A program made the position numbers and the translations under genes. A model generated the notes under the pieces. The model saw only the letters and a program-made list of their open reading frames with translations. It was not told the DNA's origin and did no database searches. A DNA stretch of 64,000 bases from Owenia fusiformis. Taxonomy: Eukaryota > Annelida > Polychaeta > Sabellida > Oweniidae. Each line of letters begins with the position of its first letter. The first letter of the stretch is position 1. Positions 22,101-57,515 of the stretch are shown piece after piece. The stretch lies in NCBI GenBank assembly GCA_903813345.2, contig CAIIXF020000010.1:1045169-1109168 (forward strand). Reading direction: 5' to 3'.

Positions 22101-25100
22101 AATTTGTAGACATTTGTTCTGTCGAACCAATCGCAGAAAAGCAATTTGAATCATGAGCAAATAAATTGGCAATCAACAAAAGTATTTTTTGAATATATTA
22201 AAAGTGATACTATCGTTTTTTCAGTCTCGAAGATATGATTCCAGGACCACAATCTTCTCACCAGAAGGTAATTATTTACTTTGTATAAGCTTATTATAGT
22301 ATTTTGTTAATCTTGAAGGTAGACTTTTTGTGTATTCTTTCCATTTCCATACATTTCTTACTTATATGAAAATGTTAAACTTTCACCAATTGTGGTTGAT
22401 GGTGAATTTGACCATGTGTGAAGTAAAAACAGTTAGGCTATCTATTAAATCTATGTTCACTTCAAAGTGTGTGTTTTTGCTCTTTTCAATGTTCTTTGAA
22501 AGCAACTTATTCATTATGCCTCATATTATGTGAAAATGGAAAGATCGCAAGCAATTTATTAAGATCTAGAGTTCAAATCAAATTCAAAGCAATAACATTT
22601 CTGTCATAGAGAAAACCAACATCACTCCAAGATCATAATAATTATGATTCAAAATATGATATTCTCTTAAAATTTAGGCAGGGTCTCCCTTATCTTTTTT
22701 TAAATAACATGAATATATGACATAAGTTGTTTGCAGTCTATTTGGGAAAAAACTGATATTTTCTCAAAATGGCAGAAATATATGTTTTTTTGGATATTAT
22801 AATTAAGATATTCATAATGAGCCCTTTTATGGTGGCAATAAACAGCGAAATAATATGAAAGATATTTCATTTCACCAACCATAGGTAGGCCTAGATGTAT
22901 GCATTATTTTTGATTCTGACGTATGAAGTCTATGTTTGAATATATATTTCAGGTCGCCTGTACCAAGTTGAATATGCAATGGAAGCAGTTGGTCACGCAG
23001 GGTCGTGTCTAGGAATTTTGGCCGAAGATGGTGTGCTACTTGTCGCTGAACGTAGGAATACAAATAAACTGCTCGATGAGGTGTCATATTCTGAAAAGAT
23101 CTACAAATTATATGAGTAAGTAGGAAGAAATTGCCCAACGTCTGTTCTATAACATTTTGCATGGTGATGAATTGGAACCATTTTTTAAATTTTTCTGCTT
23201 TAACTAAATCTCTTTTACACAATACTAAGACAGGGAAATATTCCAGAATTCAAAAAAGAATCTATCCTCATTTCAATATTAATCTTGAATTGCATTAAGG
23301 GTTATCCCCCTGCTTTATAATACTTGTACATTTCCAGTGACTTGGCATGCAGTGTAGCTGGAATCACATCAGATGCTAATGTTTTGACAAATGAGCTTCG
23401 TCTTATTGCTCAGCGTTATATGCTGCAATACCAAGAACCCATTCCATGTGAACAACTCGTCAGCACACTTTGTGACTTTAAACAAGCATATACACAATTT
23501 GGAGGTGAGAACAACTCTATATGACGCATACAAGTACTATGTGTTTTCCATTGTATGCTATTTTTAACCCTTCTTGTGTTTTTGAATATAGATAATTAGG
23601 TTGTATGTTTTGTTGTATTGATTAATAATATGAATGTTGTCTACTCTGATTAAAACTGATTGACTTCTAATGTTAATGGAATTTAGATACATTTTAGAAG
23701 TTTCTGTATGCAAATTTGTGTAGATTTATTATGGAAAAGTTGAAATTCTGTGTAATATAGCAGCTGGTTTAAGATTGCCACTAGCTGGTTGCGACTTAGT
23801 CCCGTCTCCTGTCTAGAGGCCCAGAGCCAGTTACTTAAAAGATGGCAGATTTTTCGTAATAGGAAATATCATGGCTACTTTTCCATAATTCCTTGATAGG
23901 CCTGGAATCCTAATGTTATGTCTTGGTTGCTATTATCAACATACATGTTTGACCACAATTTTGACCCCTTCAAAAATAAATTATAGCCTCTATTTTGCGA
24001 TAGTCCCATTATGAATTATGACAACCATTATGAAATTGCCCCTCAATGATTTTTTGGTTGTTTCCAGAAACATCCATTTGGTGTTTCTATATTATTCATG
24101 GGTTGGGATAAACATGGCTACCAGCTGTACCAAAGTGATCCTAATAATGAATTCTATTGTTGTTTTCAGGGAAGCGTCCATTTGGTGTTTCTATATTATT
24201 CATGGGTTGGGATAAACATGGCTACCAGCTCTACCAAAGTGAGCCCCATAATTAATTCTATTGTTGTTTTCAGGGAAGCGTCCATTTGGTGTCTCTATAT
24301 TATACATGGGTTGGGATAAACATTATGGCTACCAGCTCTACCAAAGTGACCCCAGTGGCAACTATGGTGGCTGGAAGGCAACATGTATAGGCAACAACAG
24401 TGCTGTAAGTATCTTTATCCTATGACCAGTTCAGTGATAAGTTTGTAAGATATATCCTGTATCCTGATTTTGAGGTTCCATATCCAGAACCTTCATATCT
24501 CTCCCTCCTGTGCATATTTTCCCACTTCTGGTAGTTGAAAAAAAATCCACTGAGTGTAGGATTAAGCAATTACGTAAATGTACAGCTGGAAAATAACATT
24601 TTAGGGAAAAATTGCTATACCTGCACTTGCTATTTTCTGACATGTTATAATGAGACTTTCCTGAAAAAGCAAGGAAATTAACACATGCCTTCATACTTTA
24701 TTTCCAACTGTACCTTAAAGCAGTTGGAAATGGGGTTTATCCCTCGGGAGATATACATATCTCCCTCATCTGTGGATAAACCCCATATCCAAAATCTCCT
24801 CGTACATAACCTTTATATATCCTATTTCTATACCTACTGAGGTTCCCTCAGGGGTACACATATTCCCCTTGGAATAAACCCTGTATACAGTTTTCAGTTC
24901 ATAATCCTTGTATATCTCATGTTAAGGATTACATAAGGCTAGATTACCATCAAAATGTGATACAGTATATACAATCTATTTTCAAAAGATTTGACTTATT
25001 CGCTGTAGGAATATTCATACAGCTATTCTTATATATTCTAGAAGTAATGACATATTGTTATAGTCTCCAATTTTTCTTGGATGACAGTTGGTGTTTAGCA

Positions 25101-34612: not shown

Positions 34613-37600
34613 TCACTGCATGTTAAACATTCCCAGAGCACTTTCCCCGAACTCTGGCCCACTCTGATCCAAAATACGCAAGACATTGCTTAGATCATCT
34701 GGCTGTTGCTGACCTTGTCCTTGACCTTGGCTTGAACTCTCCTGTGCTTGTGATTGGCCAGTATTCTGTAAATAACATTCAGATGTGTTATAAGTATTTA
34801 ACCTTCTGAGCACCAAGAGCAGCTAATTACAAATCTTCATTAAAGGCTAGAGGTTCTCATTTTCATACTTACCCAATTTACATTTACATTAGGTTTTATA
34901 TTTGTGCGACTGTCTTCATTCAAATTCAATTACTTAGAAGGTAACATTAATTACATTAATGAGGCAAAATGGTGAACTATGTTCTTGTAACCAAGAGCAT
35001 TATGCATGATCATTATTTCAGCAGCATGATTACAGTGCCAGGTGAACAAGTGAACCAAGGACCCTAAACTGATCCCACTGACTGCTTCTAATGTAATCCC
35101 ATATAAACAAAAGATTTTACATTTTTCCAATACAATGTTCCCTACCTGTTGTGACTGGGAGGCTGATGGCTCCCCCGTTCCTTGCCACTGAGACCAGAGG
35201 GAGGACGTAGTTGAGGAGCTCGGGTGGGTATATGTTGAGGACTGGGCTGCTCTTGCAGTGCCCCCTAGTTGTGTGTAAGTGGGGGCTCCAACATCTGCAA
35301 ACAAATATGTTAATTAATAGAGGGTTTGCTAAATAGCTTTGAAATCTTGTTGGGTCTCATGAGATTTTATGATATCTGCATTTTTAACCATTTAAGACCA
35401 ACATTTTCTTCTCTTTGATGGCATATTTGAATTTTGAGCTTTGATTTAAATAATTATTAAACTTTCAAGTTTTCTGAAAAAGGCCGCAGTGAAACAATGA
35501 AATGCCATTTACTCTTAAGGACCACAGTTTTTATGCTAAATCACAATCTGCATGTCAACAAGATAATATAATTAGTTACAATCCAATGTTTTTAATCCAA
35601 ATGGAAATACTTAATGGATCAAGAAATTAAAGTGACTTTTGCCATGTATCCTGGCCCTACCAACACAGATTTATTTAATCAAAAATAGCGCAACTTGTAA
35701 ACATACTTGGAGATCCGCTAGGGCTCATCTGGCTGTAAGGTGTACTTCCACTGTAGTCCTGGGATGACGATCCTTGAGCAAAATTGCCGCGAGGTGACCA
35801 ATTTGGACTCTGGTTCCGTCCCTGGGCCATGCTCCCAAGGCTGCTCCCAGGGGTGGCCTGACCCCCACTGCCTGTAGATGCTGTGGGATAGAGCTTAGAT
35901 CGGTTTGCATAGTTTGAGTACATCTCAGTCCCTGGGGGAGATGAGAAATATATCAATGTATACAAATAAAAATTGCTGTATTATGAGATGTTTATTTATC
36001 CCTCCATGGATGAATACATTTACTTAATGACTTAACATATTTAACTTTGCTTTATCTAACTTTACTTTTTACTAGTCTGGAGAATCAAGCTTTCTATTCT
36101 GAGATGATATTCCTATTCTGGGAGAAAAATTTGGTTCACACAACAGTATCTATATTTTTATGGGTATATTATGGAAAAATGTACATATACCTATAAAAAT
36201 AAATAATACCTTGCATCTGGCGGCTGGCCATCATATAGGGGTCACTGTACTCAGTCTTTGACTGTTCACCCATGACAGGAGGTCGGGAAAATGTGTTTAA
36301 GTTAGGTACACCTTCAGTAGTCTCCCCTGACATAACTGGAACATTGCCCCCTTGTTGGACAGATCTAAAATAAACAGAACCATACATGGTCAAAGTGATT
36401 TAGAAAAAGACCATATTTGGTCATAGTGATTTAGAACAAGACTATATTTGGTCATAGTGATTTAGAACAAGACCATATAAGTATGGTCATAGTGATTTAG
36501 AACAAGACCATATTTGGTCATAGTGATTTAGAATAAGACCATATATGGCCAGAGTGATTTAGAACAAAACCATATATGGTCAAAGTGATTTAGAACAAGA
36601 CCATATATGGTCATAGCAATTAGGAAAAAAAGACCATATTTGGTCAAAGTGATTTAGAACAAGACCATATTTGGTCATAGTGATTTAGAACAAGACCATA
36701 TATGGTCATAGTGATTTAGAACAAGACCATATTTGGTCAAAGTGATTTAGAACAAGACCATATATGGTCAGAGTGATTTAGAACAAAACCATATATGGTC
36801 ATACCAATTGGGAAAAAAGATGGCAGAGACAGGATCTTAAGAAAGGTGAGACAACTTTAGTATCCCACACACGTTGAGAGCAAATCATATTTGAACCATT
36901 TAATGTGAGTGCTGGACACTATCAATGAGGCACATTCTCTATTACATGATTAATTGCTTTCCACTTACTTTGATGAACTGTTTGTGCAAACAATGTATTC
37001 TGTTTCATCAGTGTATGGATTCTGGAATGCAAAACTGCTAGTTCGCAGCCACACCCACTCACGGTTCTTTGCACGGAATCGATATAAGATGGACAACACA
37101 TTGCCTTTGAGTTTCAGCACTGAAATAGCAAAGGTGTATTGTTTATAAAGCAATATAGCTTGGAAGTTGAGAATTTAGGGCAGTCGATCTTGAAATATGA
37201 GGCCATGGATCATAAATGCAGGGCCCTGTTTGTTATAAGGATTAATTAATTAATTTCTTTAAAGGTTGTCTAGCCCTAACTTATAGATTGCACTCTTTTT
37301 ACTGATATTGTTTATCCAAATATTTGAGATTGAGAATGGAAAACTCCTATTAAAGGAATGATTGGTTTAAACAGTTGTGACATCTATCAATTATACAGAA
37401 ATTACTCTTTATTCCTGTTTCTCTGTTCACCACAGGATAATTTCTCAACTGGGCAAAATCCTTATCTTATCCTATTGTGACTGCAAAAATGTCCAAAGGA
37501 GGTCAAACTATCCCAATTTTCCATGATTTTGCATAAGATGTACCGTTTACCTTGCTCAAAGCTGTCCTTCATATGGCCCTGGTCTTCAGGGTGATAGAAG

Positions 37601-40600
37601 TCAAATGCAGACTTGCCCAATAATTCCTGGGGCTGATACCCTAAGACAGGAGTCACCCTGTAATAAACAAGCAATTGTAGAGAATATACAAGTCAAATGC
37701 AGACTTGCCCAATAATTCCTGGGGCTGATACCCTAAGACAGGAGTCACCCTGTAATAAACAAGCAATTGTAGAGAATATACAAGTCAAATGCAGATTTGC
37801 CCAATAATTCCTGGGGCTGATATCCTAAGACTGGAGTCACCCTGTAATAAACAAGCAATTGTAGAGAATATACAAGTCAAATGCAGATTTGCCCAATAAT
37901 TCCTGGGGCTGATATCCTAAGACTGGAGTCACCCTGTAACAAACGAGCAATTGTAGAGAATATACAAGTCAAATGCAGACTTGCCCAATAATTCCTGGGG
38001 CTGATACCCTAAGACAGGAGTCACCCTGTAATAAACAAGCAATTGTAGAGAATATACAAGTCAAATGCAGACTTGCCCAATAATTCCTGGGGCTGACAGG
38101 AGTCACCCTGTAATAAACAAGCAATTGTAGAGAATATACAAGTCAAATGCAGACTTGCCCAATAATTCCTGGGGCTGATACCCTAAGACAGGAGTCACCC
38201 TGTAATAAACAAGCAATTGTAGAGAATATACAAGTCAAATGCAGACTTGCCCAACAATCCCTGGGGCTGATACCCTAAGACAGGAGTCACCCTGTAATAA
38301 ACAAGCAATTGTAGAGAATATACAAGTCAAATGCAGACTTGCCCAACAATCCCTGGGGCTGATACCCTAAGACAGGAGTCACCCTGTAATAAACAAGCAA
38401 TTGTAGAGAATATACAAGTCAAATGCAGACTTGCCCAATAATTCCTGGGGCTGATATCCTAAGACAGGAGTCACCCTGTAATAAACAAGCAATTGTAGAG
38501 AATATACAAGTCAAATGCAGACTTGCCCAATAATTCCTGGGGCTGATACCCTAAGACAGGAGTCACCCTGTAATAAACAAGCAATTGTAGAGAATATACA
38601 AGTCAAATGTAGACTTGCCCAATAATTCCTGGGGCTGATATCCCAAGACAGGAGTCACCCTGTAATAAACAAGCAATTGTAGAGAATATACAAGTCAAAT
38701 GCAGACTTGCCCAATAATTCCTGGGGCTGATACCCTAAGACAGGAGTCACCCTGTAATAAACAAGCAATTGTAGAGAATATACAAGTCAAATGCAGATTT
38801 GCCCAATAACTCCTGGGGCTGATATCCTAAGACAGGAGTCACCCTGTAATAAACAAGCAATTGTAGAGAATATACAAGTCAAATGCAGACTTGCCCAATA
38901 ATTCCTGGGGCTGATATCCCAAGACAGGAGTCACCCTGTAATAAACAAGCAATTGTAGAGAATATACAAGTTAAATGCAGACTTGCCCAATAATTCCTGG
39001 GGCTGATATCCCAAGACAGGAGTCACCCTGTAATAAACAAGCAATTGTAGAGAATATACAAGTCAAATGCAGACTTGCCCAATAATTCCTGGGGCTGATA
39101 TCCTAAGACAGGAGTCACCCTGTAATAAACAAGCAATTGTAGAGAATATACAAGTCAAATGCAGACTTGCCCAATAATTCCTGGGGCTGATACCCTAAGA
39201 CAGGAGTCACCCTATAATAAACAAGCAATTGTAGAGAATATACAAGTCAAATGTAGACTTGCCCAATAATTCCTGGGGCTGATATCCCAAGACAGGAGTC
39301 ACCCTGTAATAAACAAGCAATTGTAGAGAATATACAAGTCAAATGTAGACTTGCCCAATAATTCCTGGGGCTGATATCCTAAGACAGGAGTCACCCTATA
39401 ATAAACAAGCAATTGTAGAGAATATACAAGTCAAATGCAGACTTGCCCAATAATTCCTGGGGCTGATATCCTAAGACAGGAGTCACCCTATAATAAACAA
39501 GCAATTGTAGAGAATATACAAGTCAAATGTAGACTTGCCCAATAATTCCTGGGGCTGATATCCCAAGACAGGAGTCACCCTGTAATAAACAAGCAATTGT
39601 AGAGAATATACAAGTCAAATGCAGACTTGCCCAATAATTCCTGGGGCTGATATCCTAAGACAGGAGTCACCCTATAATAAACAAGCAATTGTAGAGAATA
39701 TACAAGTCAAATGCAGACTTGCCCAATAATTCCTGGGGCTGATATCCCAAGACAGGAGTCACCCTGTAATAAACAAGCAATTGTAGAGAATATACAAGTC
39801 AAATGCAGACTTGCCCAATAATTCCTGGGGCTGATATCCCAAGACAGGAGTCACCCTGTAATAAACAAGCAATTGTAGAGAATATACAAGTCAAATGCAG
39901 ACTTGCCCAATAATTCCTGGGACTGATATCCTAAGACAGGAGTCACCCTGTAATAAACAAGCAATTGTAGAGAATATACAAGTCAAATGCAGACTTGCCC
40001 AATAATTCCTGGGGCTGATATCCTAAGACAGGAGTCACCCTGTAATAAACAAGCAATTGTAGAGAATATACAAGTCAAATGCAGACTTGCCCAATAACTC
40101 CTGGGGCTGATATCCTAAGACAGGAGTCACCCTGTAATAAACAAGCAATTGTAGAGAATATACAAGTCAAATGCAGACTTGCCCAATAATTCCTGGGGCT
40201 GATATCCCAAGACAGGAGTCACCCTGTAATAAACAAGTAATTGTAGAGAATATACAAGTCAAATGCAGACTTGCCCAATAATTCCTGGGGCTGATATCCT
40301 AAGACAGGAGTCACCCTGTAATAAACAAGCAATTGTAGAGAATATACAAGTCAAATGCAGACTTGCCCAATAATTCCTGGGGCTGATATCCTAAGACAGG
40401 AGTCACCCTGTAATAAACAAGCAATTGTAGAGAATATACAAGTCAAATGCAGACTTGCCCAATAACTCCTGGTGCTGATATCCTAAGACAGGAGTCACCC
40501 TGTAATAAACAAGCAATTGTAGAGAATATACAAGTCAAATGCAGACTTGCCCAATAATTCCTGGGGCTGATACCCTAAGACAGGAGTCACCCTGTAATAA

Positions 40601-43600
40601 ACAAGCAATTGTAGAGAATATACAAGTAAAATGCAGACTTGCCCAATAATTCCTGGGGCTGATATCCTAAGACAGGAGTCACCCTGTAATAAACAAGCAA
40701 TTGTAGAGAATATACAAGTCAAATGCAGACTTGCCCAATAATTCCTGGGGCTGATATCCCAAGACAGGAGTCACCCTGTAATAAACAAGCACTTGTAGAG
40801 AATATACAAGTCAAATGCAGACTTGCCCAATAATTCCTGGGGCTGATACCCTAAGACAGGAGTCACCCTGTAATAAACAAGCACTTGTAGAGAATATACA
40901 AGTCAAATGCAGACTTGCCCAATAATTCCTGGGGCTGATATCCTAAGACAGGAGTCACCCTGTAATAAACAAGCACTTGTAGAGAATATACAAGTCAAAT
41001 GCAGACTTGCCCAATAATTCCTGGGGCTGACAGGAGTCACCCTGTAATAAACAAGCAATTGTAGAGAATATACAAGTCAAATGCAGACTTGCCCAATAAT
41101 TCCTGGGGCTGATATCCCAAGACAGGAGTCACCCTGTAATAAACAAGCAATTGTAGAGAATATACAAGTCAAATGCAGACTTGCCCAATAATTCCTGGGG
41201 CTGATATCCTAAGACAGGAGTCACCCTGTAATAAACAAGCACTTGTAGAGAATATACAAGTCAAATGCAGACTTGCCCAATAATTCCTGGGGCTGATACC
41301 CTAAGACAGGAGTCACCCTGTAATAAACAAGCACTTGTAGAGAATATACAAGTCAAATGCAGACTTGCCCAATAATTCCTGGGGCTGATATCCCAAGACA
41401 GGAGTCACCCTGTAATAAACAAGCAATTGTAGAGAATATACAAGTCAAATGCAGACTTGCCCAATAATTCCTGGGGCTGATATCCCAAGACAGGAGTCAC
41501 CCTGTAATAAACAAGCAATTGTAGAGAATATACAAGTCAAATGCAGACTTGCCCAATAATTCCTGGGGCTGATATCCCAAGACAGGAGTCACCCTGTAAT
41601 AAACAAGCAATTGTAGAGAATATACAAGTCAAATGTAGACTTGCCCAATAATTCCTGGGGCTGATATCCTAAGACAGGAGTCACCCTATAATAAACAAGC
41701 AATTGTAGAGAATATACAAGTCAAATGTAGACTTGCCCAATAATTCCTGGGGCTGATATCCTAAGACAGGAGTCACCCTGTAATAAACAAGCAATTGTAG
41801 AGAATATACAAGTCAAATGTAGACTTGCCCAATAATTCCTGGGGCTGATACCCTAAGACAGGAGTCACCCTGTAATAAACAAGCAATTGTAGAGAATATA
41901 CAAGTCAAATGCAGATTTGCCCAATAACTCCTGGGGCTGATACCCTAAGACAGGAGTCACCCTGTAATAAACAAGCAATTGTAGAGAATATACAAGTCAA
42001 ATGCAGATTTGCCCAATAACTCCTGGGGCTGATACCCTAAGACAGGAGTCACCCTGTAATAAACAAGCAATTGTAGAGAATATACAAGTCAAATGCAGAC
42101 TTGCCCAATAATTCCTGGGGCTGATATCCTAAGACAGGAGTCACCCTGTAATAAACAAGCAATTGTAGAGAATATACAAGTCAAATGCAGACTTGCCCAA
42201 TAATTCCTGGGGCTGATATCCTAAGACAGGAGTCACCCTGTAATAAACAAGCACTTGTAGAGAATATACAAGTCAAATGCAGACTTGCCCAATAATTCCT
42301 GGGGCTGATATCCTAAGACAGGAGTCACCCTGTAATAAACAAGCAATTGTAGAGAATATACAAGTCAAATGCAGACTTGCCCAATAATTCCTGGGGCTGA
42401 TACCCTAAGACAGGAGTCACCCTGTAATAAACAAGCAATTGTAGAGAATATACAAGTCAAATGCAGACTTGCCCAATAATTCCTGGGGCTGATATCCCAA
42501 GACAGGAGTCACCCTGTAGTAAACAAGCACTTGTAGAGAATATACAAGTCAAATGCAGACTTGCCCAATAATTCCTGGGGCTGATACCCTAAGACAGGAG
42601 TCACCCTGTAATAAACAAGCAATTGTAGAGAATATACAAGTCAAATGCTGACTTGCCCAATAATTCCTGGGGCTGATATCCTAAGACAGGAGTCACCCTG
42701 TAATAAACAAGCAATTGTAGAGAATATACAAGTCAAATGCAGACTTGCCCAATAATTCCTGGGGCTGATACCCTAAGACAGGAGTCACCCTGTAATAAAC
42801 AAGCAATTGTAGAGAATATACAAGTCAAATGCTGACTTGCCCAATAATTCCTTGGGCTGATATCCTAAGACAGGAGTCACCCTGTAATAAACAAGCAATT
42901 GTAGAGAATATACAAGTCAAATGCAGACTTGCCCAATAATTCCTGGGGCTGATACCCTAAGACAGGAGTCACCCTGTAATAAACAAGCAATTGTAGAGAA
43001 TATACAAGTCAAATGCAGACTTGCCCAATAATTCCTGGAGCTGATACCCTAAGACAGGAGTCACCCTGTAACAAACGAGCAATTGTAGAGAATATACAAG
43101 TCAAATGCAGACTTGCCCAATAATTCCTGGGGCTGATACCCTAAGACAGGAGTCACCCTGTAATAAACAAGCAATTGTAGAGAATAAACAAGTCAAATGC
43201 AGACTTGCCCAATAATTCCTGGGGCTGATACCCTAAGACAGGAGTCACCCTGTAACAAACGAGCAATTGTAGAGAATATACAAGTCAAATGCAGACTTGC
43301 CCAATAATTCCTGGGGCTGATACCCTAAGACAGGAGTCACCCTGTAATAAACAAGCAATTGTAGAGAATATACAAGTCAAATGCAGACTTGCCCAATAAT
43401 TCCTGGGGCTGATACCCTAAGACAGGAGTCACCCTATAATAAACAAGCAATTGTAGAGAATATACAAGTCAAATGTAGACTTGCCCAATAATTCCTGGGG
43501 CTGATATCCCAAGACAGGAGTCACCCTGTAATAAACAAGCAATTGTAGAGAATATACAAGTCAAATGCAGACTTGCCCAATAATTCCTGGGGCTGATATC

Positions 43601-46600
43601 CCAAGACAGGAGTCACCCTGTAACAAACGAGCACTTATATTAGAACAGAAGCAAATTGTAGAGAACATATGTACATTGATAATGTTATAAAGAATAGTTG
43701 TTAAGGTGAGAGGTCTTAATAACCAATCTAAGTCTTACCTTTGGTCAACAAAGGTGAATTTGCCATCGACACTGTGCCGTGAGATGAATTCTGTAGCACC
43801 GTTGGGTGTGATGTCACTGACGTTAGGAGTGCTTGTTACTTGGAGACGACCAATAGCAACCAGGCAACAATGGCTACTATTATGTTCTTCAGTTTCATTC
43901 CTCTCAATTTGAACTCCTGAACAATAAGACAAACATAAAGCATTTATCAATGTACATTTCTAGTAAATGTATTCAACTTTATTTATTTATTTATTCATTC
44001 ATACGATCACCTAAGTCTAATATTCTCTTATTATGACAATTATGGCGATAAATTAGTGAATTTTCTTTTACAAGATTGTTGTCATAAAAAAACTCTAATT
44101 CAAAAAAGCTAATTCAACCTAGATCTTTAACTGTAGACATATATAATCAGAGAGCATGCGTAAATGTTCACTTGTTGAAACCTTTTGTTTCCTCCATCCT
44201 TGTAATTTTTTCCACACTTGTTCATTTACATATTGGTACTCCAGGATGACTAGTTTTCATAGGTATGAATTCATAGCATAGTAATAATATAGCATAGTTA
44301 TAATAAATATAGTTTGACAATTATAACATACCTGCTGGGGGCCAGTTCTTTATATAACCAGTCACATGAACGACTGCATAAGAATTGCCATCACCAGAGG
44401 GACCTAGTGTTGCACGTTGCCTCATTCTGATTGTATGACTCGCAGCCATCGGGTCGATTGCCATGTTTCCTAGTTTCATTCGGCATATAAACCCACGTCT
44501 GGAACCCATACATAGCCGTAATGACGATTGATGACCTTCTTTTTTAACTGTCCCTGTTTTTAAATCAAGAATTCTCCCCGTATTTTGAGACTCCGTCGTG
44601 GAAAGCTGTTCTCGTAGTTTTTCGGTGTCATCATGATGAACCTGCTCATACAGGTTACTTTGGTACCAGTCATTCTGAAATTGTATCATAGATGCTTGAA
44701 TCAGCCAGAAATGAGAACTGTGCACCAGTCATTTTGAAAGTTATGATAAAATCTGTAAGGCTTATCAATTCCAGATATTCTGAAACTATATGGGAGCTAG
44801 AACATACATTTTATTGCATATCATAATTATGTACTCTCCAATTCACAATGGTGGCAATAAAACATGAACCAGCTATCATAAAATGAAAACATTAGTACCA
44901 GACATAATGAGATTAAGACTAATGGTTACCAGTTATATTGAAATATGGCCTCGTATGAAAAGATTTTAGACTGAAGGCAATGTACAAAAATGTAATTTAA
45001 TATGACATTATATTATATAGGAGATCATATTTTTGCCCACAGGTGACAGAGATATAAAGAAACAATGTTCGGGTACTTCATAAATTCTGCTAGTTTTTCA
45101 AATACAATCAGGTATTCGCTCGGATTCAGAATGCTGCGAATGTAAAAATGTATATCTGGCACAAATTGAGGCTCTTGCAAAATTCGCAATATGTGAGACA
45201 ACATAAAAATCTGCAAAACTACTTCCATGAAATCCCATGAAAATGAGATGCTTTTGAAATGGGATTTTTCAATGAATGGTACTTTACTCAAAAAAAAACC
45301 CTTAATGTCCCATCTACCAGCTGAATTTAACATGAAACAAATAATATGGGCCCCAATATAGAGGTGTAACTTATGGGTGACTTATTGAGAACTGGAGTGA
45401 TGGAATCTGACACGTAGATAACACGCCCAGTGTCACATTGGATCACAAACAGGAACAAATAATATGGGCCCTAATATAGAGGTGCAACTTACGGGTGACT
45501 TATTGAGAACTGGAGTGATGGAATCTGACACGTAGATAACACGCCCAGTGTCACATTGGATCACGAACAGGAACCCATCTGCAGCCTGGAGGCAAAATAA
45601 GATAATTTCATAACACGTGAAAGATGAAACATAGATACTTATTACAAAGCATACATAGCAGGGTGAAATTACTTTGTCAAGAAGCATTTTGAAATAAAGC
45701 TTCATCAAGGATTTTGTGCCTGTGTAACACCTCAACAATCCTCTGTTACAAAGATTTTTTTGTCAAAATATTTATCAAACCTGCTATATATATATTTATA
45801 AAATACTCATGAGAGTCAATAAAATGTCTCGAAATATTTTGCCTTGCAGAATTTTAATCTATCGTTGCTGATCAGTGAGGGATGAAGGTTTATATGAATC
45901 GTCATTTTGCTTTTTTAATACTGTATATCCTTGTTGATTTGGTACTTTTTATTACTAGAATTGTGTGTATTTGAATTACCTCTAAAATTAGATGCTTCAG
46001 CTCCTGGTCAGTGAGGAAGGAAGGTTTATATGCACCATCATTTTGCTGGGTATTTGTACCTTCAAGTCAATACATAAGATTATTTTAAACAAGGTTAATA
46101 TGCACCATCATTTTGCTGGGTATTTGTACCTTCAAGTCAATACATAAGATTATTTTAAACAAGGTTAATATGCACCATCAGTTTGCTGGGTATTTGTACC
46201 TTCAAGTCAATGCATAAGATTATTTTAAACAAGGTTTATATGCACCATCAGTTTGCTGGGTATTGGTACCTCCAAGTCAATACATGAGCTTATATTAAAC
46301 ATCAATAAGGAAATTCTTGAAATAAAATTATAAAGCTCCATCTTGAATGATTACCATAATCACGCCAAGGAACGCACATTGCGCTTGTGAAATTGGAGTA
46401 GAATAACATGAAATATCGACCCCAAATAGAGCACATGTAAACACAATTTCTATAGACAATAATATATATGTGGATTTTATCTGAATCTCAGCAATATGTA
46501 CTTGCTCTTCGCTCATTTATAGACTTTATAGAGTAATAATATTGGATGCAGCACATCTTCATGTATTCTTCATATGTCTGAAAATAATGCTTTCTGACCA

Positions 46601-49600
46601 ACCCGATTTATATGAAATTTTTAATAAACTTTTTGCTGAATTTACAGCTCATTAAAGTGAAATTCTAAGAAGGTTGGACTCTATTTTCTTCATTTTTCTC
46701 CCATCTTAAGGATGATTATAAAGCTTCTGAAGTCACATGCGCGCTCATTGGGACATGTGCGGTCTTTGGCATGACTATGGTATTTGAAAACATAGGAAAT
46801 AGTAATGGTGTTTATGCTAGTCAGGCATCAAACTCCTGTACCCCCCCCCCACCCTCCATTCTATCTGCAATTTGGTAAGTGGATATCAGAGGGGAACAAA
46901 AGGTTTATGCAAGCATAAGTTTGACCTGATTTCTCCAATCTGTTAATTGATCAACTATAATATAATCAAGTATGCACATGTGTGTATGAAGCATAAAGGC
47001 CCCATATAAAAAAATTGTTTCTAAAATGGCAATAGAAAATACAATATTTGAAAATTTTAAGAGATGAACAATTTTTTTTCAAAAGTTCCATTTTTCAAAC
47101 TATATCTCAATCTTTTTTCAAGTCATGAAAAATCACATTTGATTGATTGAACTATATTGTCAAACTTTGCACAGGACCATTAGGCATTCCATCTTAAGAC
47201 ATTGAGAAATTCGTACAGGTAAAAAAATAGGAAATTAAATTCAAAATTATAATTCTATTGCATTACAATTAAAATGGAAAAAATGCCATGGATTAACCAT
47301 GTGAGCCAACAATACATTATCGTTATAACATAAATATATACTGCAGAACAATATGAAAAAGAAAATCTTGTAAAAAATAAAAAAAAAGTAAAATAATTAG
47401 AAAAGTAACTGAATCTTATAAATCTGTCATTCCAAATCAAAACTTATATATGATGATGCCTTATCTATGTGAAAAACCATGAATACAATTATATTAACGT
47501 TGGCAAGGCATTAAAATTGTTACGCACAAGATTTTAGTAATCAAAATTTGAGTATTCAACTCAACCATGCCAAAGTTAACCAGATTACAAGAATATTTGA
47601 AGCACAGTGTTGTCATCAATTATAGATCCAAGTATAGCGTTCATGTTTGGATTTTTAAAAGCTGTTTAGGTCTGCATGTTAAGCAAATAAATGATCTCAA
47701 TATCCTAGATGCGAGTAGAAATAATCTTGATTTACGTCATTAAAATTCACAATTCAGTCAAACTGATGTCATATTTGGAATCTACATATAAAATTATATC
47801 ACGAAATGTGGTTTTGAAAAGAGTTTATCAACTTTGAAAATTTGATTTTCTTTGAAAATGTGACTTCTAGGTCGGGGAGATTCCCCATAGACCCCATGTT
47901 GTAAAACCACAAAAAGAGAAATATCTTTCTTGTGTTAGGCAGATACTATTTTCTTTTAATGGACATATTTTAATTTGTATAACTATCACATACATAAGGG
48001 TAATATAAAAAGTGAACCACTAAAACTGAGGCTTATTCAAGTTTAAGGGAATTTTGTAATACCCTGCCATGTTATTTCCCCCGAATCAGCCACCTGGTGG
48101 CGAAACTGGTAACTACCTACTCGCATCTGAGTAATTCACTCCATATAAACTGAAGTATTTAGCTTTGAGGTTATCAGAGTCTTAATTAATTTCTCAATGA
48201 ATAATTCTATTCAAAAGCTATACAAATAACAGAGTAGTTTGACAGGGACTTTAAGGGTCTTTGGGATTGTCCAAATATAATAGTGAAAAAAAAAAAAATT
48301 CTTCTTGCAACTTGTTTGAAAAAATGTATATTGATACATAAAATATAACTGAAAATAGATGTGTCCTATACTATATTGGATTATAATACCCATGGGATTG
48401 CCCTGACCTCGTTTGTGTGCATTGCTATTTCTAAATGTGAAGACAACATGTTGTGCTATATGTTATATGTGGTTGCTCATGAGTTATGACAGGCCCCATG
48501 TTACCTCCTTGTATAGTCCGCATATGAGCTACAGCCAATTTAAGTATAGTCAGCTTATCAGGTTTACGGGCTAGAGTGCTGCAAGCTGGCACCATATCAC
48601 AGAGCTCATTCACGTAAGTAGCCATCTTGGTTCGTCTGCGACGTTCAATCTCGCAATGGCTCTCCCTGTAAAGTTATATAATGTTGTTTAGAGGTGAGTC
48701 CTCTAAGCCTAAGTGTTGTCTGCATGCAGCAGCCACTTGAACAAAGCATTATGGGAAGACATATCAGTATCTAAGACAAATATTGAAAAAATATGAAATA
48801 TAAGACTACAAATGATTGGATGTATAAGTCTTATCACTTCTGGTTATAACTTGGAATTTGAACACATGATATGAGTATATAATGGTTGCTATGGTAATAA
48901 CCTGATATGTTGTCCCCGAGAATGACTTTATCAATGAGGCCAGATGTGATTTGTTAACAACATGCAATATTCTAGTATGCCTTGTATAAAGAAGCGTGCA
49001 ACCCAAAAAATGCCTAAAAATAAATAAGAAAATCAAAGTGAAAGTGAAATTAACCATAATTGAACAGAAGCTGTCAAATATGGTCGCTAGGCAACATCTA
49101 AACAGTGCGTGGTGTGACCTGACATCTGCTGACGTCCTTGTGATGTCATACAAACCTCGTAGATTTTTCATGTGAGATACTGCCATACGCAGTATCGTTA
49201 GTTTATCAGGCTTACGAGCCAGTGTTGCACATGTTGGGACCATGTCGCAAAGCTCTGTGATGTATGTTGTCATTTTGTTGCGACGTCTTCGCTCAATCTC
49301 GCAATGACTTTCTCTGTAATAAGCAGTCAAAGCTACAGATTACTATACATAGGCAGAACAGTACATATAGCTATATATGGATCTAGGGCAGAACAGTACA
49401 TATAGCTATTTATCCCATACTTGGACGTGTTACAGGTACATAAGGCCGGTTTGTAAAAACTTATATTTTCATCAGCGGGCAGATATAGCTTTACGTCCCG
49501 CTCCGAGCGGGCAGATATAGTATATCTGCCCGCTACGTCATAATCGCCGCTCGCATATTTTTCATAATTGGTAACGTTCGCGTAATGACTGTAAACGACA

Positions 49601-52600: not shown

Positions 52601-55600
52601 TTGTTAAAGATTGCTTTACCCTGAATTTTTCTTTTTAAAAATTAAGGTTAATAGAACTGACAATGATATCAAACTTGCCTCTTTTGAGTGTTACATGATT
52701 TCCTAAGGTCACCACTGTCACCTGTAAATAGGACCACTGGGCTACTGAATGAAAATTCAGATTGGGAGATATTGTATGATTTCTATGAATCAAATAAGAT
52801 TTAAAAGAAGATTTTAAAAGTCTTCCTGTTGTCTACTATGATTCCTAATAAGATACAATTAAACGATATTCTACATATAGCCATTACCCCAAGTTCTTAC
52901 TATCCTCAAGTTGTTCCATTTTATCAGATAATTGTAAGGTAGATACATACACTACCCTCAATAAGTTTGGCAACTGGGAATTTTCATTTGATAGCAATTA
53001 AAACATATCTATGTTTGAATCTAAATTTTGTTCCTAATATACAATACAAGTAGTATAGACATTTAAGACAAAGATTATTTTTAAGTTGTCAAACATTAAA
53101 AGGGTTTGATAAATGATCCAAAAGGTGACTGTTGATTGCTTAACTTATGGAGGGGAGTGTACATACAGTACATGTATTGTGTTATGTTATAATCTAAACA
53201 TTTAGCATGATTTGCAATAAAGTGTGATGATTAAATAAATGCACTTTTCAACAGCTCTGATAATTAGACATTTTCTATGACATGATCATATTAACGGAGT
53301 GGAGGAAGGTATGATGAATCATTTAAATGAATTAGCCATGTATTGTCATATGTTATATGATCATACTCATTTAATAATATGGGAATCTATCTAGGCGTGG
53401 TGCTATATAATGGATATAATTAAAGCAATTCTGACATCCGATATGACACGATTTAATCTTAAGAAATGAAAATTGAATAGATTAAGAAACATTAATCAAA
53501 CACGTTGCCAAGTGTGACGACATGTGAGATTAAATATTTAGTTAAATTAATATGAAATGCGTAGTAAACAGTCAGGTTGTAATGACACATATTATTATCA
53601 TTTTAATAGGGAAAATAATAAACGGATCGGTGAGACATGTAACTAATACAATATCCACTCCATCTGATTAATGGAAAACTGTTTTTACTTATATGTAGCA
53701 AAAATGATTTTTCTAATCGAGTGAAAATTAAAGGTACATGTACTGTATATAGTTAGTTGCATAACTAAGAATGTTATAGGAATGTTAATTACAGGATTGA
53801 TAAACTGACTTTGACATGTGTTTATGATTTTAGAAATAAATCACTCCACTTTGCTAAAGAATTCTATAACAATGAAGCCATACCCTGTTACCTAGACAAC
53901 TAAATCATTATGTCAGGCTTAAAAGTGATTCTTTTGTCACTTTGCTTGTGTCAAGACAGCTTACAATTTGATGTTCAATTCCTAATATCAACATTTTACC
54001 AGTTAAAACACAAAAAATTGTAATTAAGAGTCCCTAGTAATGGCAAAATGATTTCAAACACAGATAGTCTAAAATTTAAAATAAGTGACTTATAAATTTA
54101 TGCATATCCGCAACTATCTTTTTGCTAGTGATCCTCTTGAATGGCCAATAGAGACCCTTATACCCTAAAGTTCATGGATCTGCTCATGTGTCCAAGGCAC
54201 TTACAATCCATAAGTATTAGAACAGCATAGAAAGAATAAACACCCACAAGGCAAGAAAGTTAACTGTCACATTATTGACATTTAAACTACACATACGAGA
54301 AAAAGTTTATTAGTTAATTTCTTTTTTTAGCTTAGTATTTAATAGTCATGTAAACTACTAGAAAAAAGTTTATTCATAAATTGATTTTGAGCTTAGCATT
54401 TAAAAGTTACATTTTGCTATTATATATTCACAAAAGCCTGTTAGTGTAAGTGAACACAGTGAACGCAGATCACAGCGAACTGCCAAGCAATGTTGATTTA
54501 TTCAAAATGGTTACGGCTGTCTTTCTGAAGTTTGTCCTGCCAACATTTTATAATTCATTGAAAATCACTGAGTAAATGATTAGAATAAACCAATGAGTAT
54601 TAATGTAAGTGTTCTCACTTGGATTTCTCTTGACAGAATCACTCAAAACTATATATTTTGGGGAACATCTCTCACCCAAATCTCCAGATTCATGCTTTTC
54701 TTTACATTTGAAAGCAAATCAAAGGTTGATGGTTCTTTGAATGAGGGTGCATGGACAGGTTCGGATAAGATAGTGTGCCTCAGTCTAAATACTACAACTG
54801 AACTCTCAGATATACAGTAAAACCTATCTACTAAACACCTCTAAATGTGAACACTTTTTCTATTCTTAATCTGTAAATTAGATTTGACATCAAAAACCTT
54901 GAAATGCGAACACCTGCCAATTTAAACACTTTTGGCTGGTCAAGCTATGTTCATATTAGATATTAGGTATTACTATTTGTCAGTATTTGATCCAACAGTC
55001 TCATTTTCATTATTTCAATGTATTGTATAATTTTAATGCATTGTATGATTTTAATAAATTATAATTTCAATATATTGTATGATTCTAATGCATTGTATAA
55101 TTTCAATACATTGCATAATTTTAATACATTGTTTTATTTCAATATATTGCATAATTTTAATGCACTATATAATTTCAATGTTTTGTATAATTTCAATGCA
55201 CTGTATAATTTCAATGGACTGTATAATTTCAACGTATTGTAAAATTTCAATATACAATTGCATTATTCCAATGTATTGCATAATTTTAATATACAATTGC
55301 ATTATTTCAATGTATTGTATAATTTCAATGTATTATATAATTTCAATGTATTGCCTATTTTCAATATACAATTGCACTATTTCAATGTATTGTATAATTT
55401 CAATGTATTGTATAACTTCAATGTATTGCATATTTTCAATATACAATTGCATTATTTCAATGTATTGTATAATTTCAATGCATTGTATAATTTCAATGTA
55501 CTGTATAATTTCAATGTATTATATAATTTCAATGTATTGTATAATTTCAATATACAATTGCATTATTCCAATGTATTGTATAATTTTAATATACAATTGT

Positions 55601-57069
55601 ATAATTTCAATGTATTGTATAATTTCAATGTATTATTTAATTTCAATGTATTGCCTATTTTCAATATACAATTGCATTATTTCAATGTATTGTATAATTT
55701 ACCTTGCTGCTCTTTCTTTATCTGTGATATTCTCTCCATCCCCAAACATGTTTGAATCATCATCTTCATTGTCAGACCTGTAAAAAAATTATTGTATTCT
55801 CAAACTGACCTCTCAAACCTATTGAGGTTCTAAATTGCCTTAAGTTGGCAATACATTCATGCAGGATATATAGTGTATATATAGTGTAGTGTATCTCGAG
55901 AGCATGGATGGATGTTTCTGTATCTATCCAGCTATATCCCAGTCAAGCTCTATCATTTTTTCAAATAGTGAAAAAATCATGTTTGAAGTTTTAAAATAAA
56001 TATATATATATATATTTTTAAGAATTGTGGGGCCTCAGAAAGCAAGGTACAGTATACCTAGAACTTCAGAAAATGTCAGTTTTGAATCCCTCAAGAAATA
56101 TATTTTTTATATTTCAAAACTATGCTTATTTCCCTAATTTCCCTCCCTATAAACCTTGTATCCAAAACACTCCAAAACTCTTATTTATACAATAACACTA
56201 ACAAGCTACTATAGGCAATGTACAATATTTCCCATTGTTTTGCCATTTCTGAAGTGTAAGTAAATATAACGCAAATCATTGAAATATATTCATATATTCT
56301 ATATAGTGGTAATCGAAATCTCTCGATCGAACAGGTCTCAGATATTCTAAAAAACAAAAGATAAAAAATGGCATCACCTGGAAAGTTAATACGAAACATT
56401 GACCACTGAACTTAAAGTGTGGTCATAAAAACCATTGCCATAACAACAATATATGACATGATGATGTCATAAAACTCTGATATTAATTAGTGTATCATGT
56501 CTAACAACCACCCATATTGAAAATACGAAGCAATGGAATATGATTGAAAAGTTTGTCTTTCATAGTTCAGAGGGACATCAGAGGTAAGCACCCCAAAATG
56601 GCTAAATAAGTCACGAAGGTAGATATGATATATCCAACCTACTCCTTGAAAGGTAGATATCATATATACAGCCTACTCCTGGAAATTGAAGTTTCATGAA
56701 GTGAACTGTTGCTTTGAAAGAAATGTTAAAAACATGTTGACAGTTCCCTAGTAATCTAAAGAAATAAATTTTGTTTTTCATGTTTTTCAACAAATATAAT
56801 ATGTATCTAATTTCTTAATGTCAAATGTTTTGAAAAAGGTGAAACTGCATCATGAAGTTAATCTAAAGCTCATGAGATACATCTGTTATATACAATCAGT
56901 GGAGAAAATTGGCTTTATTCCATGAGCTCGGTGTCTTGTATTTTGGTTAAAGTATTGAACTCAGGATAAATCCTATATCCAAAGCCTCTTAGTGCAAAAC
57001 CTGTGTATACTCACCCTGCTCCATATGTCTTGCGTTTTCTGCCAGCTTTACCAGCATCAGATGTAGGCC
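34613..57069 (-). CDS. ARNT: ARNT (aryl hydrocarbon receptor nuclear translocator) homologue; 5' end not located
   Basis: Class II bHLH-PAS transcription factor, the nuclear partner of AHR, HIF-alpha and SIM-type proteins. Minus-strand exons join in frame: 57015-57069, 55703-55777, optional 51228-51257, then either 49156-49313 or 48505-48665 (bHLH), 45980-46059, 45493-45585 and 44332-44674 (PAS-A), 43739-43916, 37551-37657 and 36969-37119 (PAS-B), 36210-36364, 35707-35931, 35146-35294 and 34613-34765 (stop TGA). That is about 640 residues without the 5' exon(s). Diagnostic stretches are RKRK near the N-terminus, [61 protein letters not shown] and FQNPYTDE. The tail is Gln/Ser-rich, as expected of a transactivation domain, and ends [14 protein letters not shown] rather than BMAL is supported by ARKPDK and [10 protein letters not shown]. 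The exon carrying the start codon lies above 57069, perhaps beyond the window. Several introns carry tandem arrays touching splice sites. Confidence 0.95.
36379..36815. repeat. 31-bp minisatellite with palindromic core, abutting ARNT exon 36210-36364
   Basis: About 14 units of 'gtgatttagaacaagaccatatatggtcata'-type sequence. The core 'gaccatatatggtc' is a perfect palindrome in many units; others have 'gaccatatttggtc'. The array starts only ~15 bp from the exon's acceptor end. Confidence 0.9.
37551..37657 (-). other. ARNT: Functional PAS-B exon of ARNT at the edge of the 92-bp array
   Basis: 107-nt exon reading [15 protein letters not shown] then FYHPEDQ and KDSFEQ, with a GTAAAC donor. Its first 57 nt (37601-37657) plus the 35 nt of intron before it form the repeat unit of the array. 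This is the only copy that continues past the repeat boundary into the remaining 50 exon bases and a donor. Confidence 0.93.
37601..43642 (-). repeat. ~66-copy 92-bp tandem array of a PAS-B exon 3' splice site
   Basis: Unit of 92 bp. On the minus strand it holds 35 nt of intron ending 'gtttattacag' followed by 57 nt of coding sequence for [19 protein letters not shown]. The first unit starts at 37601 and the last at 43561. That interval of 5960 bp equals 65 units, allowing for two shortened 82-bp units near 38090 and 41030. Units differ by a few substitutions only (taccc/tatcc, caatt/cactt, cagac/cagat). The variants are scattered and recur, indicating ongoing homogenisation. Because 92 is not a multiple of 3, no long frame spans the array. 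Confidence 0.97.
43739..43916 (-). other. ARNT: ARNT exon between PAS-A and PAS-B, upstream of the array
   Basis: Reads VQIERNE through [13 protein letters not shown] to [16 protein letters not shown]. The donor at its low end (GTAAGA) must splice over ~6 kb of array to the acceptor at 37657. Phase 2 matches. Confidence 0.93.
45336..45585 (-). repeat. ARNT: 118-bp tandem duplication of the 3' half and donor of an ARNT PAS-A exon
   Basis: The real exon is 45493-45585 (AADGFLF...VTPVLNKSP-like block) with a GTAAGT donor. A copy lies 118 bp away: exon-like 45375-45453, same coding text with one or two changes. Its donor is altered from GTAAGT to ATAAGT, so it cannot act as a 5' splice site. Confidence 0.88.
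46021..46300 (-). repeat. ARNT: Four 70-bp tandem copies of an ARNT exon 5' end and acceptor
   Basis: Units at 46021, 46091, 46161 and 46231. Each contains 39 nt of exon ([10 protein letters not shown]-coding) and 31 nt of preceding intron with its acceptor. Only the first is connected to the rest of exon 45980-46059. A further diverged copy, with 'gatcagtgagggatgaagg', lies near 45860-45905 on the other side of the exon. Confidence 0.88.
48505..48665 (-). other. ARNT: Alternative ARNT bHLH exon B
   Basis: 161 nt, acceptor 'ctttacag' and donor GTAACA. Encodes [14 protein letters not shown], then helix-loop-helix text with [17 protein letters not shown] and HMRTIQ, with one more codon than exon A. 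The DNA-contact residues of the ARNT basic region (His, Glu and the terminal Arg of H..E..RR) are intact. Start and end phases equal those of exon A. Confidence 0.9.
49156..49313 (-). other. ARNT: ARNT bHLH exon A
   Basis: 158 nt, acceptor 'ttattacag' and donor GTTTGT. Encodes [14 protein letters not shown], then [19 protein letters not shown] and AVSHMKNLR. It is the copy closer to vertebrate ARNT, including RRRRNKM and [10 protein letters not shown]. The donor GTTTGT is weaker than consensus, so selection may be regulated. Confidence 0.92.
49371..49988. mobile_element. Composite palindromic insertion flanked by a 22-bp direct repeat
   Basis: 'ctatatatggatctagggca' occurs at 49371 and again at 49967. 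Between them are two palindromes. A small one at 49474-49534 is built of 'agcgggcagatata'-type arms. A larger one at 49824-49963 has ~37-bp arms beginning 'ttatcctatagtcggttcag' and ending in the near-complement. The layout suggests one MITE nested with another, in the ARNT intron upstream of exon A. Confidence 0.65.
51228..51257 (-). other. ARNT: Candidate 30-nt ARNT microexon
   Basis: Flanked by 'tttgtccgcag' and a GTATGT donor. It carries A AAC TCT AGC GCT AAA GAC ACC TGG CAA AG, i.e. [11 protein letters not shown] when joined. Both sides have the phase of the 55703 and 49313/48665 junctions, so it can be included or skipped without changing frame. Human ARNT has an optional 15-residue exon at the same place, just before the basic region. 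No transcript evidence here. Confidence 0.6.
51260..54800. other. ARNT intron, no further feature recognised
   Basis: AT-rich. At 52080-52260 there are loose 'tatatggtatataat' repeats. No additional exon with conserved bHLH-PAS text was found. Confidence 0.5.
54815..54960. mobile_element. Tigger/pogo-like remnant
   Basis: 'cagtaaaacctatctacta' and, inverted further on, 'aaacacttttggctggtcaa'. The same two motifs occur at 14146-14210. Degraded MITE. Confidence 0.4.
55010..55702. repeat. ~18-bp minisatellite ending exactly at an ARNT donor site
   Basis: About 38 units of 'ttgtataatttcaatgta'. The last partial unit ('ttgtataatttac') contains the minus-strand donor GTAAAT of exon 55703-55777. 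On the plus strand the array gives artefactual Ile/Ser/Met- or Asn/Phe-rich frames of up to 234 codons. Confidence 0.93.
55703..55777 (-). other. ARNT: ARNT exon upstream of bHLH
   Basis: 75 nt, reading [16 protein letters not shown] then DKERAA and ending with the first two bases of Arg. It is acidic, like the region before the basic domain in vertebrate ARNT, and the DKER motif is shared. Confidence 0.9.
57015..57069 (-). other. ARNT: Most 5' ARNT exon seen
   Basis: 55 nt, reading [18 protein letters not shown], a basic stretch consistent with the ARNT N-terminal nuclear localisation signal. Acceptor 'ttttcag' and donor GTGAGT. It begins in mid-codon, so at least one further exon lies upstream. 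Confidence 0.8.
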
Positions 57070-57515
57070 CTGAAAATACACATTATCAACATGTTAAATA
57101 CACATTATGAACATGTTAAATACATACCATATTATAGAAATGTTAAATACACATTGTTAACATGTTAAATACACATTATAAACATGTATTATAGGCATGT
57201 TAAAGACACATTATAAACATGTTAAATACTTATTATAAACATGTTAAATTCATACAGTATTATGGACATGTTAAATACACATTATTAACATGTTAAATAC
57301 ACATTATAAACATGTTAAATACACATTATAAACATGTTAAATCCATACAGTATTATGGACATGTTAAAGACACATTATAAACATGTTAAATACATATTAT
57401 AAACATGTTAAATATATACCATATTATAGACATGTTAAAACACATTATAAACATGTTAAATACACATTATAAACATGATAAATACATACCGTATTATAAA
57501 CATGTTAAATACATT
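57070..57515. repeat. ~22-bp minisatellite abutting the acceptor of ARNT exon 57015-57069
   Basis: Roughly 20 imperfect copies of 'acacattataaacatgttaaat', some with 'catacagtattatggac' variants. The array begins within 5 bp of the AG acceptor, so its terminal unit includes the splice site context. Confidence 0.9.

Follow-up and report, generated by a model that had tools for sequence, protein, structure and literature searches.

The 64,000-nt stretch of Owenia fusiformis DNA analysed here (the window; contig CAIIXF020000010.1, positions 1,045,169 to 1,109,168, assembly GCA_903813345.2) carries a minus-strand ARNT gene in which the border between an intron and the PAS-B exon has been copied into a tandem array of 66 units. 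The gene was identified as ARNT from a 135-residue joined translation, which best matches ARNT structures (5y7y chain B, E value 3.2e-57). Among the 120 matches listed out of 3230, the best protein (P0001) is from O. fusiformis and shows 96 % identity to the 582-residue query. When aligned to the window, P0001 accounts for its exons, with five pieces at 100 % and the remaining pieces falling below this mostly where the alignment overruns the exon.

The array is flanked by two minus-strand exons, both placed by mapping and donor scores: the upstream exon E8 (43739–43916; donor AAG|GTAAGA, GT at 43738) and the 107-nt PAS-B exon E9 (37551–37657; donor AAG|GTAAAC, GT at 37550), which is the last copy. 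E9 is complete and present in the annotated protein; at its exon-side end, the array retains the authentic copy of the exon. P0001, an annotated gene model, contains one normal PAS-B segment, which is the expectation if the donor at 43738 joins the acceptor at 37657.

Anatomy and variation of the array

Tandem Repeats Finder (TRF) resolved the region 37594–43633 as 65.9 copies of a 92-bp unit with 97 % match; cut at the exon start, the array comprises 66 copies, namely 65 decoys and the true exon start. The decoys are uniform in size (63 of 92 nt), except for two of 82 nt that carry an identical 10-nt deletion. On the minus strand, each 92-bp unit consists of 32 nt of intron end (GTATATTCTC...TTACAG) and 60 nt of exon start (GGTGACTCC...GACTT). 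An earlier note, made from the DNA sequence alone, had proposed an amplified coding exon–intron border with about 65 decoys, the true exon being the copy farthest from the upstream donor. The TRF result and the unit list bear out both points, as well as the composite nature of the unit, although the split of 57 + 35 nt given there was 3 nt off. The ends it assigned (37601 and 43642) belong to the same array, which in fact runs from ~37594 to ~43633. The term 'satellite' is overstated: satellite DNA forms long arrays or occupies many loci, and all 66 matches of the 92-mer in the 498-Mb, 525-contig genome fell within this one ~6-kb locus, in a search that scored only the best candidates and skipped very common words.

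The 63 full-length units fall into 29 distinct types with a mean pairwise identity of 97.3 %; the units are highly, though not completely, homogenised. Adjacent units are more similar to each other than shuffled units (0/2000 shuffles gave a value as low), and identical unit types recur at distant places in the array. No repeated run of three or more units was found elsewhere within it, and its longest exact repeat is 244 nt. These features look like ordinary minisatellite turnover. Where the earlier note took the array to be young or maintained, the dispersal of shared unit types suggests turnover via unequal exchange or conversion. Most columns of the unit (72/92) are invariant, and the variable ones are spread equally over the exon part (13/60) and the intron part (7/32; p 1.0). 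Of 60 sites, the true exon departs from the array consensus at only one, and 17 of the 63 full decoys match it exactly across the exon part. The mean distance of the exon part from the consensus is 1.24, 0.81 and 1.32 in successive thirds of the array.

The same features bear on whether the copy number has been inflated by the assembly. Tandem copy numbers can be wrong in noisy long-read assemblies, and this genome was assembled with Canu from PacBio Sequel reads, with gene models aided by RNA-seq, according to the genome paper (PMC9977687). However, the read N50 of 25.75–30.75 kb given there spans 6 kb, and the 244-nt limit on exact repeats, the 29 unit types and the lack of a repeated block of at least three units also speak against inflation. 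We therefore consider an assembly artefact unlikely, to the point of giving it almost no weight.

Splice signals and coding potential of the units

The acceptor AG is kept in all 66 copies (59 TTACAG, 6 TTATAG and 1 CTACAG), including all 65 of the decoy acceptors anticipated in the earlier note. The exon-like part of every decoy is also followed by a GT (64 GTATAT, 1 GTTTAT). The decoy donor CTT|GTATAT scores 1.1, which ranks at the 63rd percentile among all window GTs, whereas the true donor of E9 scores 6.1, at the 99th percentile. The 12 ARNT donors used for the matrix (12 of 13, E2 left out) score 3.0–10.6; these were scored leave-one-out, and the decoys with the full matrix. Reading on from each decoy acceptor to the true donor encounters an in-frame stop in 65/65 cases, at codon 32 in 63 of them and at codon 46 in the other two. 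In this test, the downstream exon E10 was taken one base too long; this bears on the stop obtained for the true exon (codon 56) and on the product of joining all mini-exons, but leaves the 65 decoys unaffected as their stops precede the true donor. Stops are expected in AT-rich introns; hence, their presence in every decoy is no sign of design or selection.

Tandem duplicated mutually exclusive exons arise by copying of a whole exon together with a working donor. The ARNT array resembles them in that exon sequence and splice signals are repeated in tandem within one gene; however, only the first 60 of the 107 exon nucleotides have been copied, such that no decoy is a complete exon, and the decoy donor scores no better than the 63rd percentile of window GTs. 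The bHLH exon of the same gene does resemble this class. It is duplicated (E4a, E4b), with copies at 48505–48665 (161 nt) and 49156–49313 (158 nt). Both lengths are 2 modulo 3, such that joining both copies would shift the frame, and the pair therefore appears to be mutually exclusive under enforcement by the reading frame. Sequence of the E4b type is present in Lingula anatina isoform X2 (P0003) and in P0006, suggesting that the E4 pair may be old.

The in-frame length of the exon-like part raises the possibility that each unit is a 60-nt exon of 20 codons, with 32-nt spacers that are spliced out to add 20-residue repeats to PAS-B in some transcripts. The presence of a GT after the exon-like part and an AG before the next in 65/65 units, the 60-nt length of 63 of the 65 putative mini-exons and the mostly synonymous nature of the common variants would suit such an arrangement. 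Nevertheless, the donors are on a par with background GTs in score, and introns of 32 nt would be very short. Two of the mini-exons measure 50 nt, which disrupts the reading frame. The rare variants, of which 3 are synonymous and 7 nonsynonymous, are as expected without constraint, and a search with the 20-residue repeat found no protein. On the strength of the weak donors, the two frame-shifting units, the equal variation of exon and intron parts and the missing protein match, we rejected translated mini-exons, which we regard as very improbable.

Alternatively, the array may be regulatory, with decoys competing for splicing factors or giving rise to transcripts with stops, so that ARNT levels would be adjusted, possibly to a degree that varies with copy number. 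An array of 65 acceptors that keep their AG and are each followed by a stop would suit a switch. The four invariant GT/AG columns are unremarkable, however, because 72 of the 92 columns are invariant. The equal variation of the exon and intron parts fits tolerance better, as do the absence of array enrichment at borders and the occurrence of similar structures in unrelated genes (both described below). A regulatory role is therefore improbable in our view.

Resemblance to amphioxus mirages and possible origin

Minisatellite-like tandem duplications across exon–intron borders have been described in amphioxus as 'mirages' (PMC3087553, PMC3902484), with cases in Adh3, the globins BflGb6 and BflGb9, troponin C and PGBD5, the latter two being lancelet cases from PMC3902484; the regular mRNA was reported to be intact by reverse transcription PCR. 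The ARNT array has the structural features of a mirage: repeats run in tandem across the border, many of them retain splice signals, and the authentic exon is intact. Amphioxus mirages sit at 5′ or 3′ borders, and the 66-copy array sits at a 3′ splice site. It differs in its host, an annelid rather than a cephalochordate, in its 66 copies, as against 6 and 3 in the two BflGb6 haplotypes, and in the likeness of its units (97 %, as against 81–100 %). A further difference lies in the type of evidence, since the amphioxus mRNA is reported as regular, whereas the ARNT array is known here from genomic sequence of one assembled haplotype and the gene model P0001. On this sequence evidence, the array looks like a very large mirage in another phylum, with far more copies than the amphioxus cases compared. 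Literature searches confined to an open-access collection, with most subscription papers outside it, listed no annelid case of a border-spanning minisatellite; the accessible text on earthworm metallothionein introns describes minisatellites there, but not border-spanning ones, and a huntingtin paper yielded no case in the text covered.

To judge by its title, a 1995 report by Turri concerns a human transcript, induced by interferon, in which a minisatellite holds multiple splice donors. The likeness lies in a minisatellite supplying many splice sites to one transcript; there, by that title, donors serve the transcript, whereas the ARNT array supplies acceptors that show no sign of use.

The probable founding event can be read from the intron end that precedes the first decoy (43618–43665, minus strand), which, compared with the units, appears ancestral. 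Its sequence, CTCTACAATTTGCTTCTGTTCTAATATAAGTGCTCGTTTGTTACAG, includes the branch-point-like TTCTAAT; the repeated units lack this motif. Removal of 21 nt from CTCTACAATTTGCTTCTGTTCTAATATAAGTGCTCGTTTGTTACAG gives CTCTACAATTGCTCGTTTGTTACAG, a form kept in three units, while the others carry two further changes. These comparisons suggest that the founding duplicate probably lost 21 nt, including the branch-point-like TTCTAAT. A candidate replacement branch point, TTGAC, is located ~35 nt before each later AG, within the exon-like part of the preceding copy.

We consider it likely that the array is a mirage that was seeded by duplication, expanded and has been tolerated through exon definition and the decay of splicing slips. 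A local duplication would by chance have spanned the PAS-B 3′ splice site, providing a minisatellite seed whose expansion within the intron, through unequal exchange or slippage, could have produced the 66 copies. Because the duplicated piece holds only 60 of the 107 exon nucleotides, only the last copy forms a complete exon with a strong donor. Correct splicing therefore most likely rests on exon definition, in which the acceptor would pair with the nearby strong donor and the last copy would be picked. With decoys lacking a partner donor, we infer that splicing errors are rare; those slips that do use a decoy would run into an in-frame stop, and nonsense-mediated decay would then clear the transcripts, making errors mostly harmless. 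The array would thus be tolerated rather than useful.

Several observations weigh against this account. The first decoy lies nearest to the upstream donor and is the only one to retain the ancestral-looking branch-point motif, which should favour its use. Exon definition by the true donor at 37550, as put forward in the earlier note, is in keeping with the percentiles of the true and decoy donors (99th versus 63rd); however, in a PAK gene of the same genome (see below), the decoy donor is identical to the true donor (CAG|GTAAGA), such that donor strength cannot be a general rule and proximity or an intact exon must decide there. Furthermore, P0001, with its normal PAS-B, is a gene model rather than an observed transcript. 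Finally, the common variants may point to coding constraint. Of the variant types found in the exon part, 7 are synonymous and 8 nonsynonymous, and those in at least five copies are 4 synonymous to 1 nonsynonymous, an excess of synonymous changes with p 0.012–0.035 depending on transition weight. The excess is weak among all variant types (p 0.04–0.15) and absent among rare ones (3:7), and the contrast between common and rare variants is not significant (Fisher p 0.12). Our reading is that the common variants may have been inherited from a period when the exon was constrained and that the decoys are now drifting.

Other duplicated borders in the genome

Two further mirages were detected in ARNT by TRF, both on the minus strand. 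The first (46021–46301) is a 70 bp × 4 array over the acceptor of E5, with the true acceptor at 46059 and decoy acceptors at 46129, 46199 and 46269, each followed by stops. Downstream of the true E5 exon is a degenerate copy of it (45844–45912; 56 % identity, one stop). The second (45336–45574) is a 118 bp × 2 duplication over the donor of the PAS-A exon E6 (45493–45585), in which the second donor, at 45374, has decayed from GT to AT (CCC|ATAAGT). Three other ARNT arrays (57074–57513, 55008–55700 and 36379–36803) reach to within 25 bp of a border but stop short of the exon, the borders beside them being the E2 acceptor, the E3 donor and the E11 acceptor.

The neighbouring plus-strand gene PSMA4 carries a mirage at 24073–24354, a 104 bp × 2.7 array over the acceptor of a true exon at 24274–24404, with stops following both decoys (24068 and 24170). 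The same mirage was apparent as three adjacent overlapping matches in a proteasome-family search, where it was the only one among 14 loci, read by coordinates from 40 matches that we grouped into those loci. Between 28255 and 30459, the window also contains five tRNA-Asp (GTC) genes in a 473-bp tandem array.

Beyond the window, 2 of 40 kinase loci (47 exon cores) carry border repeats; these loci were hand-picked from 144 Pkinase matches, mostly partial, of which 95 loci were listed and 40 taken. One is the PAK exon, with repeats at both borders (86 bp × 3.8 and 71 bp × 2), and the other is a kinase exon, MAP2K-like by eye, with a mirage at its donor side. A further locus (L028), chosen for its two adjacent matches and kept outside the mirage count, contains a diverged tandem pair of kinase exons, GSK3-like by eye (4757–4906 and 4935–5066), possibly an alternative-exon pair. 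Mirages thus seem to be common in the Owenia genome, and the earlier view of a coding border as an unusual seed was not supported by this comparison, given the amphioxus cases and the several others found here.

The occurrence of three mirages in ARNT and one in its neighbour could reflect a mutational process specific to splice borders, e.g. linked to transcription or splicing. Tandem arrays of period at least 15 occupy 24 % of the window. In the ARNT region, 3 of 27 borders lie inside tandem arrays, compared with 7.7 expected under random placement (2 versus 2.6 when the 6-kb array is left out). In the kinase sample, ~3 of 94 borders were hit (47 exon cores × 2, with domain ends only approximating exon ends), against a background of 7.7 % of 244 kb in tandem duplications (offset 40–1000). 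The one count in favour is that of borders within 25 bp of arrays, which, leaving out the 6-kb array, gave 6 versus 3.0 expected (p 0.10), although array edges could gather at borders because exons halt array growth. Both tests are small, and neither gave any sign of enrichment that would indicate splice-specific amplification, leaving a border-specific process distinctly improbable. Rather, duplication seems indifferent to borders and borders seem to tolerate it; with no array enrichment at borders in these two small tests, ordinary tandem duplication plus tolerance suffices.

It is possible, at somewhat less than even odds, that tandem duplication is unusually active in the Owenia genome and has, as a side effect, made mirages pervasive there, with perhaps thousands of exon borders affected. 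Mirages would then grade from copied borders, via intron growth, into duplications of whole exons that go on to serve as alternative exons (e.g. the ARNT bHLH pair), with the 66-copy array as the extreme of this continuum.

Mirage exons may mislead automatic gene prediction. With 66 near-identical acceptors in one intron, only one of them with a strong donor, the ARNT array represents a natural experiment on splice-site choice and, if mirages are indeed pervasive, a natural test of exon definition. Annelid mirages would show an oddity of amphioxus recurring in a distant animal lineage and would link the turnover of tandem repeats to intron growth and exon duplication.

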